Source: Actibacterium atlanticum
Lineage (GTDB): Bacteria > Pseudomonadota > Alphaproteobacteria > Rhodobacterales > Rhodobacteraceae
Length of the DNA stretch: 64,000 nt
Reading direction: 5' to 3'
Assembly: GCF_000671395.1 (NCBI RefSeq)
Contig: NZ_AQQY01000005.1
Span: forward strand, 62,001-126,000
Shown: one piece after another, positions 14,155 through 15,098 of the stretch
Layout of the letters: every line of letters starts with the position of its first letter
How positions within the stretch are numbered: position 1 is the stretch's first letter
Program-made: the position numbers and the translations under genes
The notes under the pieces: model-generated
The model's database searches: none
The model's input: only the letters and a program-made list of their open reading frames with translations
Told to the model about the DNA's origin: nothing

Positions 14155-14727
14155 GTGGTGACGAGGATTATTCAGGCAGCTCGGGTTGGGCTAGGAGGCG
14201 CTGCAGCGCTGGCCATGGCCCTGACCGTGAGCGCGGGGGCTGCTCAGGCGCAGCAGAAGGTTATCAAGGGTGAACGCTATACGCCGACGATTTGGGTTGA
14301 CCCGGACGGATGCGAACACTGGGTTATGGATGATGGCTGGGAAGGCTACATGACCCCGCACGTCAACCGTGATGGCATTCCGGTTTGCCGCCGTGGCAAT
14401 ACCTGCGGTGTGATTGCGTCGGATCAGTTGTTTACAACCGACAAACACCACATCACCGCTTCGGGCAAAGCGCGTTTGCAGAAGTTCTTCAATGAGAGCA
14501 GCGCGACGTCGTTCATCATTGTCGGACACACAGACGCCCGCGCCTCGGATTCATATAACATGGCGCTGTCGCAGCGTCGTGCGAACTCGGTCGCATCGGT
14601 TGCCCGCAGCGTGGGTGCCCGCATTGCCGATGTGCGCGGGTACGGGGAACGCCAACCGGTGGCCAGCAACAAGACCGCATCCGGCATGGCGCGCAACCGC
14701 CGTGTTGAAATCATCTGCTTGCGTTAA
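14155..14727 (+). CDS. OmpA-family peptidoglycan-binding protein with N-terminal Cys motif
   Basis: 190 residues from GTG 14155 (GTG 14158 is equally possible) after GAAGGA. The signal peptide runs to about residue 32 (SAGAAQAQ). Residues 46-78 carry a small motif: IWVDPDGCEHW, DDGWEGY and IPVC, with cysteines at 53 and 78. Residues about 87-189 form an OmpA C-terminal domain (VGHTDARASDSYN, LSQRRANSV, NRRVEI), including the Asp and Arg that bind the meso-diaminopimelate of peptidoglycan. It is followed after 12 bases by a lipoprotein gene with the same small motif. Confidence 0.85.
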   Translation: MVTRIIQAARVGLGGAAALAMALTVSAGAAQAQQKVIKGERYTPTIWVDPDGCEHWVMDDGWEGYMTPHVNRDGIPVCRRGNTCGVIASDQLFTTDKHHITASGKARLQKFFNESSATSFIIVGHTDARASDSYNMALSQRRANSVASVARSVGARIADVRGYGERQPVASNKTASGMARNRRVEIICLR

Positions 14728-14739
14728 GGAGAGGCGATC

Positions 14740-15042
14740 ATGAAACCGATCAAAGCAATCGCGTTTGGCATGTCGGCCTTGCTGCTGGCAGGCTGTATCG
14801 ACGCCCCTAAACGGGACAAGACCCGCGACTATGGCATCGACCGCAAGGATCTTAGCCAGCTGCGCGCCGGGATTTGGGTTGATCCGCAGGGCTGTGACCA
14901 CTGGATCATCGACGACGGCGCCGAAGGCTATCTGTCGGCGCGACTCGATAAGTACGGTAAACCGGTGTGTTCGGGCATTGCTCCGCCCGAAACGGCCGTC
15001 GGCCCCTACAAAAGTGGCTCTGCGATCGAAGATCCGATCTGA
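14740..15042 (+). CDS. Small outer-membrane lipoprotein sharing the OmpA partner's Cys motif
   Basis: 100 residues, preceded by AAGGAGAGG. The lipobox LLAGC places the lipidated Cys at residue 19, with no Asp at +2 (Ile), so outer-membrane sorting is expected. Residues 45-77 repeat the motif of the preceding protein: IWVDPQGCDHW, DDGAEGY, KPVC, with cysteines at 52 and 77, the same 25-residue spacing. No other domain is visible. The pair probably forms a two-gene operon ending at the terminator at 15064-15098. Function unknown; an envelope structural role is inference. Confidence 0.75.
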   Translation: MKPIKAIAFGMSALLLAGCIDAPKRDKTRDYGIDRKDLSQLRAGIWVDPQGCDHWIIDDGAEGYLSARLDKYGKPVCSGIAPPETAVGPYKSGSAIEDPI

Positions 15043-15063
15043 TTTCGCATCAAAACTGTTTCA

Positions 15064-15098
15064 AAAAAGGTCGCATCCCGCCGGGTTGCGGCCTTTTT
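15064..15098 (+). terminator. Rho-independent terminator after the OmpA/lipoprotein pair
   Basis: A 12-bp stem AAAAAGGTCGCA / TGCGGCCTTTTT with one G-T pair and a loop of about 11 bases ends in five T. It separates the lipoprotein gene from phoH. Confidence 0.8.

Follow-up and report, generated by a model that had tools for sequence, protein, structure and literature searches.

Two adjacent genes in a 64,000-nucleotide stretch of Actibacterium atlanticum DNA (the window) encode an OmpA-type exported protein and a short lipoprotein that share a 33-residue domain with two cysteines. The same two genes occur side by side, in the same order, in many genomes of the Rhodobacteraceae. We tentatively incline to the view that the pair forms a two-piece envelope link, in which the twin domains would be joined directly or via a shared partner, without going so far as to call this probable.

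The gene pair in the window

The gene order in the window is miaB, the OmpA-type gene, the lipoprotein gene, phoH, ybeY, a CorC-type gene, and lnt; the neighbouring genes were named by eye and from an annotated Ruegeria region. The features of the pair are listed in Table 1. The OmpA-type protein has a signal peptide with a cleavage site between AQA and QQ (recognized by eye) and possesses no lipobox. It matched PF00691 with 51.3 bits, which is above the Pfam cut-off of 27.2, and the top Foldseek matches of its OmpA domain were PA0833, YfiB, and OmpA C-domains. The lipoprotein is composed of the lipobox, the 33-residue domain, and a 23-residue tail. The hairpin downstream of the lipoprotein gene would close a two-gene unit; it was absent from the output of a simple terminator scan. 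The promoter scan returned one site versus 0.7 expected and was uninformative.

Table 1. Features of the two-gene unit (positions in the window)
Feature	Positions	Strand	Evidence and remarks
OmpA-type exported protein gene	14155..14727	+	ORF and translation; 190 aa, GTG start
Twin two-Cys domain, OmpA copy, residues 46-78	14290..14388	+	BLASTP to lipoprotein (19/33); match to profile A1; three predicted strands in fused model
OmpA-like peptidoglycan-binding domain, residues 92-182, with TD-x14-R pair	14428..14700	+	PF00691; Foldseek
Short lipoprotein gene, 100 aa	14740..15042	+	ORF; starts 12 bp past the OmpA stop
Lipobox Cys19 (LLAGC), predicted lipidation site	14794..14796	+	Sequence; lipobox-like string in 129/130 relatives
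Twin two-Cys domain, lipoprotein copy, residues 45-77	14872..14970	+	BLASTP; lipoprotein-alone model
Terminator-like hairpin and T run, 12-bp stem with one wobble, just 3' of the lipoprotein gene	15063..15098	+	By eye

The domain reads IWVDPDGCEHWVMDDGWEGYMTPHVNRDGIPVC in the OmpA-type protein (residues 46-78) and IWVDPQGCDHWIIDDGAEGYLSARLDKYGKPVC in the lipoprotein (residues 45-77). Comparison of the two proteins by BLASTP aligned exactly this 33-residue stretch, with 19 of 33 residues identical, no gaps, and an E value of 3e-15 (single comparison). The two cysteines are 25 residues apart in both copies. A sequence-only reading of this DNA had pointed to such a motif, common to the OmpA protein and the adjacent lipoprotein and with this same cysteine spacing; that the stretch alone could be aligned confirms it, and the shared domain can be regarded as established. 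Chance similarity was considered and is ruled out by the BLASTP match together with the recurrence of the domain pair in 130 distinct pairs. A domain dispersed over many proteins of the genome was likewise rejected, as only two copies were found in the genome of A. atlanticum at E values of 10 or better. Both cysteines are conserved and, judging from this, probably form a disulfide.

Two extra conserved cysteines, located in GNTCG and EIIC, flank the OmpA domain, so that the mature part of the OmpA-type protein contains four. This additional pair is present in 129 of 130 relatives. Its position suggests a second disulfide, which would pin the ends of the OmpA domain.

Predicted fold

Both copies of the domain are predicted to adopt the same three-stranded meander. 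Namely, a model (50 rows) in which the two proteins were fused by reading across the stop codon between them placed strands at 13-16, 21-27, and 32-36 in one copy and at 206-210, 216-221, and 226-230 in the other. The confidence of this model was modest (mean pLDDT 72.8, pTM 0.54). The lipoprotein modelled alone (54 rows) reached a mean pLDDT of 82.1; block means within the domain were 83-96. The earlier reading had asked for structure predictions of both proteins as a check on its idea of a duplicated mini-domain; the predicted secondary structure is the same in the two copies and speaks for this idea. A fold match of the lipoprotein in the PDB was sought and rejected: the best Foldseek E value was 1.1 and the best VIA-align Z score was 2.4 (vaccinia G3/L5), which says nothing about the novelty of the fold.

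Distribution among genomes

Genomes were searched with a profile built from 18 motif copies (A1) and with a wider profile (A4). Within the family, sampled at one genome per genus, 183 of 295 genomes matched A1: 179 contained two copies, four contained one, and 112 contained none. The wider profile again matched 183 of 295 genomes of this sample. The motif therefore recurs far beyond the pair in the window, and the concern that it might be restricted to these two proteins no longer stands. Since 112 of the 295 family genomes lack the pair, it must be dispensable in much of the family. Of the four single-copy genomes, two (G270 and G603) encode a lipoprotein alone; in G515 the contig breaks off within the OmpA copy, and G486 displays only a weak match (E 9.5e-4). 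In the order sample, 142 of 196 genomes matched. Twelve of these are single-copy genomes, all from genus g33, and one genome (G682) contains four copies.

The class sample (385 genomes of Alphaproteobacteria) yielded five strong matches, all in members of the same family. No credible copy was found in its other 380 genomes, where A1 gave two weak matches (E 0.0023 and 0.0033) and A4 gave nine (E 0.008-0.05); among the matches listed, all of these weak ones span part of the domain. In the phylum sample (299 genomes), 11 family genomes were retrieved along with five weak non-family matches (E 0.0015-0.009). Occurrence of the domain outside its own family was considered for the weak class-sample and phylum-sample matches, and none of them, among the matches listed, was accepted. 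The best 80 of at least 547 relatives obtained in a contig scan are titled as Rhodobacteraceae or Roseobacter-group organisms, apart from two titled Alphaproteobacteria only.

The plasmid collection contained eight records with the motif, from Thioclava, Tritonibacter, and Ruegeria. The complete block of miaB, OmpA-type gene, lipoprotein gene, phoH, ybeY, corC-type gene, and lnt is located on the 491-kb megaplasmid of Ruegeria pomeroyi DSS-3 (L259, NC_006569.1 131-8869), in which the pair has the locus tags SPO_RS19800 and SPO_RS19805. In Thioclava sp. GXIMD4215 (L260), a 428-kb plasmid carries the segment from miaB to phoH, after which come ABC transporter genes. In both strains, these core genes sit on large plasmids.

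Architecture of the pairs

The comparison included 130 distinct pairs, 78 from named genome records and 52 from other genomes. Both genes lie on the same strand, with the OmpA gene first, in all 130. The intergenic gap ranges from -1 to 31 bp and is most commonly 12 bp (120 of 130 pairs, those with an ATG start found); over a larger, partly redundant set of loci it ranges from -2 to 31 bp. A tblastn search over the 130 loci detected phoH in 124 and miaB in 120.

The sequence-only reading had assigned the two proteins to different anchoring modes, wall and outer membrane, and the sequences do support two modes of anchoring. TD-x14-R is present in the OmpA domain of all 130 pairs. This motif comprises an Asp and an Arg, 15 residues apart, which we take to be those that hold diaminopimelate; the residues and their spacing come from Acinetobacter OmpA. 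A hydrophobic stretch and an AxA-like site precede the OmpA copy of the two-Cys domain in 127 of 130 pairs each. Lipobox-like strings upstream of this copy were found in seven of 130 pairs, and only that in G016 (L010) is convincing by eye. In the lipoproteins, a permissive pattern detected a lipobox-like string in 129 of 130, the exception (L066) having a disturbed frame. These features point to wall binding by the first protein and to lipidation of the second.

Two loci deviate from this scheme. In G016 (L010), the OmpA-type protein has an apparent lipobox (LTGC), and the partner lipoprotein lacks the usual tail, ending directly behind the domain. This would make lipoproteins of both, which, as far as the sequence goes, fits action at a membrane. 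In G014 (L030 / L011), the OmpA gene looks disrupted: the domain-bearing frame stops early, and the motif copies are about 1.5 kb apart versus the usual distance of about 0.6 kb, as if something had been inserted.

Conservation and co-variation

Across the pairs, mean pairwise identity reaches 83% in the OmpA copy and 84% in the lipoprotein copy of the two-Cys domain, compared with 65% in the OmpA domain and about 55% in the lipoprotein tail. The residues conserved to at least 94% in both copies form one set: W, D, P, G, C, H, W, DDG, EG, G, P, V, and C.

Evolutionary distances of the two motifs are correlated (r 0.72), and the correlation is 0.61 with PhoH and OmpA-domain distances removed; none of 999 permutations gave a value as high. 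This test was performed with the 122 of 130 pairs for which the retrieved sequence covered enough of PhoH. The lipoprotein motif and its own tail have a distance correlation of 0.42, which is below the motif-motif value. Without four divergent loci (118 pairs), the correlation was 0.52 and the partial correlation 0.35, again with none of 999 permutations as high. These values suggest joint evolution of the two motifs but do not prove it, because the permutation ignores the tree and shared ancestry is not fully removed. Identity between the two motifs is 48.6% within a genome, slightly above the 48.1% across genomes; none of 5000 permutations reached the within-genome value, but the effect is tiny and is not cleared of shared ancestry.

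These data bear on the idea of a fossil duplication, according to which a single copying event placed the domain in the OmpA gene, the two proteins now act independently in unrelated tasks, and their adjacency is inertia. Adjacency can indeed last without function, and no paper naming DUF6440, the family discussed below, was found. However, conservation of the domain exceeds that of the OmpA domain and of the lipoprotein tail, and the two genes are also jointly absent from the 16 motif-less genomes examined and jointly duplicated in one genome. We regard a mere fossil as highly improbable.

Relation to DUF6440 and phage proteins

The statement of the sequence-only reading that no name was known for this domain holds in so far as no Pfam or NCBIfam family matched the 33-residue stretch above its cut-off, but it has to be amended, since the domain is distantly related to a named family. 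In hmmscan, DUF6440 (PF20037) matched the window lipoprotein exactly over the domain with 13.5-13.8 bits, below the cut-off of 26.5. A weak DUF6440 match was obtained for 32 of 54 lipoproteins examined (best E 0.0024). In a Foldseek search of viral models, DUF6440 took rank 1 with probability 0.99 over 41 columns, yet with an E value of 0.14; it accounted for five of the first 32 rows. The family phrog_11767 matched the window lipoprotein with an E value of 6.3e-4 and a protein of phage SP-15 with an E value of 2.5e-8.

Profiles of phage proteins, accepted DUF6440 members among them, were compared with those of the domain. The wider profile A4 aligned to a profile of four phage rows (A5) with a probability of 94.5% and to one of fourteen phage rows (A6) with 96.3% (E 1.7e-9), and the lipoprotein alignment reached 92.0% against the phage profile. 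In the control for this comparison, 200 column shuffles gave at most 37.2%. Additionally, the phage profile was run over 13,635 ORFs, where ORFs with E values under 1e-8 to A1 were taken as motif ORFs and a gene could be counted repeatedly owing to overlapping loci and to genomes present in two collections. The first 15 places were all taken by motif ORFs, with lone lipoproteins on top (E 1.4e-6), and 61 of 317 motif ORFs ranked above the best other ORF. E values below 0.05 were attained by only 12 of the 317 motif ORFs, and values below 1 by 133 of them versus three non-motif ORFs. Single-sequence hhalign comparisons with five phage proteins gave 46-84% for four and 0.4% for the second SP-15 protein. 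Among the controls, one of 300 random frames scored 81% (15 columns) and the rest at most 5.4%, and one of 60 shuffles scored 45.5%. In view of these results, we do not trust the single-sequence scores alone and rely on the profile comparison and the ORF ranking.

The DUF6440 protein of Bacillus phage SP-15 scores above the cut-off (31.4 bits), reads as a lipoprotein, and has two cysteines in the same places. SP-15 encodes also a second, weaker DUF6440-like protein. Similar proteins, with a lipobox or one membrane helix as judged by eye, occur in Aeromonas and Xanthomonas phages and in IMG/VR contigs. Of six phage sequences scanned against Pfam (two full-length proteins and four fragments), three scored above the cut-off. 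The cysteines are 20 to 27 residues apart in the 14 phage rows, and the phage relatives examined carry single copies of the domain. A tblastn search of the phage collection with the motif gave no match.

The phage proteins (L263 1369-1626, L264 1369-1725, L266 472-714, L267 415-708, and L269-L283) are small and exported, and mostly follow the pattern TGCQYLS...TPRL...C. They are possibly involved in superinfection exclusion.

The order D..GC.(Y/W)......(T/S)PR(L)...G..C is common to the domain, DUF6440, phrog_11767, and phrog_8801, and both cysteines align. In contrast to these families, the domain described here has the DDGxEGY stretch between the cysteines, a near-fixed spacing of 25, paired use, and a fusion to an OmpA domain. 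On the strength of these alignments we regard the domain as sharing descent with DUF6440; it is a distant relative and is not filed as a member, since its scores are below the Pfam cut-off.

Absence, lone copies, and the proposed function

The search for the OmpA-type protein covered 24 genomes, 16 of them without the motif. In these 16, neither gene was found, and the best resemblance to the OmpA-type protein (E 1e-17 or weaker) was due to generic OmpA domains. Orthologs were identified in G728 (E 3.5e-62) and G682 (E 1.4e-58), and a cut one in G515. In G678, phoH comes immediately after miaB. The same is true for G270, which has a lone lipoprotein elsewhere, beside glnA (by eye); the lone lipoprotein of G690 is also located at another site, away from the miaB-phoH locus. 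Both cysteines are kept in these two proteins, and the DDGxEGY patch shows no more than conservative changes. The surroundings were read in these two of the 12 single-copy g33 genomes; G728, also of genus g33, has the full pair. Given that lone lipoproteins exist, the domain does not need its twin.

The G682 genome contains a second, strongly diverged pair of OmpA and lipoprotein genes, side by side (L190 1414-2291, also within L214). Its acidic stretch is altered (IYNG, FIEG), DD is lost, and WVSP replaces WVDP in both proteins.

Taken together, the shared domain, the joint presence and absence of the genes, and the fixed gene order are most simply read as a two-piece link. The OmpA-type protein would be exported by its ordinary signal peptide and, having no membrane anchor of its own, would bind peptidoglycan through the OmpA domain, as its family and residues indicate. 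The lipoprotein, judging from its lipobox, would most likely reside in the outer membrane. Each protein would bear one copy of the small domain, a distant relative of DUF6440 with three strands locked by cysteines. By mutual pairing or through a common third component, the twin domains would bring the wall-bound and the membrane-bound protein together, and the pair could tether the outer membrane to the wall or act as a scaffold between them.

The most serious alternative is that each copy binds the same ligand, such as a protein, a glycan, or a metal, and that no complex of the two ever forms; the pair would then be a duplicated receptor on two anchors. The conserved patch of the lone lipoproteins in G270 and G690, the single set of residues conserved in both copies, as expected for one ligand, and the single-copy phage relatives are all in line with it. 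Independent binders, however, would require neither the joint absence in 16 genomes, nor the joint doubling in G682, nor the co-variation of the motifs. We consider uncoupled ligand binding a real possibility, though a doubtful one.

A strict heterodimer, in which the domains bind only each other, possibly with an inter-copy Cys bond acting as a covalent clamp, appears improbable. It would explain the two conserved cysteines per copy, the co-variation, and the two copies per genome. The cysteine spacing, which is 25 in 127 of 130 OmpA copies and in 124 of 130 lipoprotein copies, can be cited on both sides: in the three pairs where it is 26 in the OmpA copy, it is 26 in the lipoprotein as well, but two pairs combine 25 in the OmpA copy with 26 in the lipoprotein. 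Lone lipoproteins with an intact patch and both cysteines, as well as single-copy phage relatives with the same two cysteines, speak against such a clamp and make an internal Cys bond more likely. For the two-piece link, the intact lone lipoproteins favour a third or shared partner, or self-pairing, over strictly mutual binding.

Significance and comparison with known systems

The literature search retrieved no paper on this pair and no experiment on these proteins. No paper was found for DUF6440, for the Ruegeria accessions and locus tags, or for three guessed old-style tags, and none of the locus tags in the excerpt of PMC7901474 could be tied to the present pair. Attachment of the outer membrane to the wall in Alphaproteobacteria is an open question, for which this two-gene unit, widespread and specific to one clade, offers a candidate that can be tested directly. 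Also, DUF6440, a family of unknown function in Pfam, gains a cellular setting: exported, envelope-anchored, and probably disulfide-locked. This setting may help to explain the phage versions of DUF6440.

According to the excerpted text of PMC10470522, most Alphaproteobacteria lack homologs of Lpp and of other outer-membrane lipoproteins. The same excerpt describes DalA (RSP_1200) of Rhodobacter sphaeroides, an outer-membrane lipoprotein of about 18 kDa that is linked to peptidoglycan, binds it by itself, and co-precipitates with a predicted L,D-transpeptidase, RSP_1199; the OmpA family protein RSP_1033 is among the DalA co-precipitants (PMC10470522). The lipoprotein studied here resembles DalA, as portrayed there, in being a Rhodobacterales lipoprotein of, most likely, the same compartment, but its precursor is 100 aa long and has no recognized wall-binding domain. 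Identity of the two was considered and is doubted on size (100 aa versus about 18 kDa) and setting only, in so far as that excerpt of PMC10470522 describes DalA.

The best solved match of the OmpA-type protein, by both sequence and fold, is PA0833, followed by OprF and YfiB by sequence and by YfiB by fold. The OmpA-like domain is shared with PA0833, YfiB, and YiaD (PF00691), and TD-x14-R is kept. In most of these proteins, one chain also carries the anchor, a lipid or a barrel. The present OmpA chain differs from them in having no anchor and in carrying an extra two-Cys domain in front.

The score of the OmpA-type protein for Pal (TIGR02802) is 60 bits, below the NCBIfam cut-off of 125.35. One scenario, which we hold to be unlikely, is that Rhodobacteraceae took over a phage-type Cys-locked domain, doubled it, and fused one copy to an OmpA domain, thereby producing a split counterpart of Pal whose two proteins are connected by the twin domains. 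Under the two-piece link, the connection between outer membrane and wall via an OmpA-like domain would work as it does in Pal; unlike in Pal, the lipid anchor and the wall binding would be divided between two proteins.
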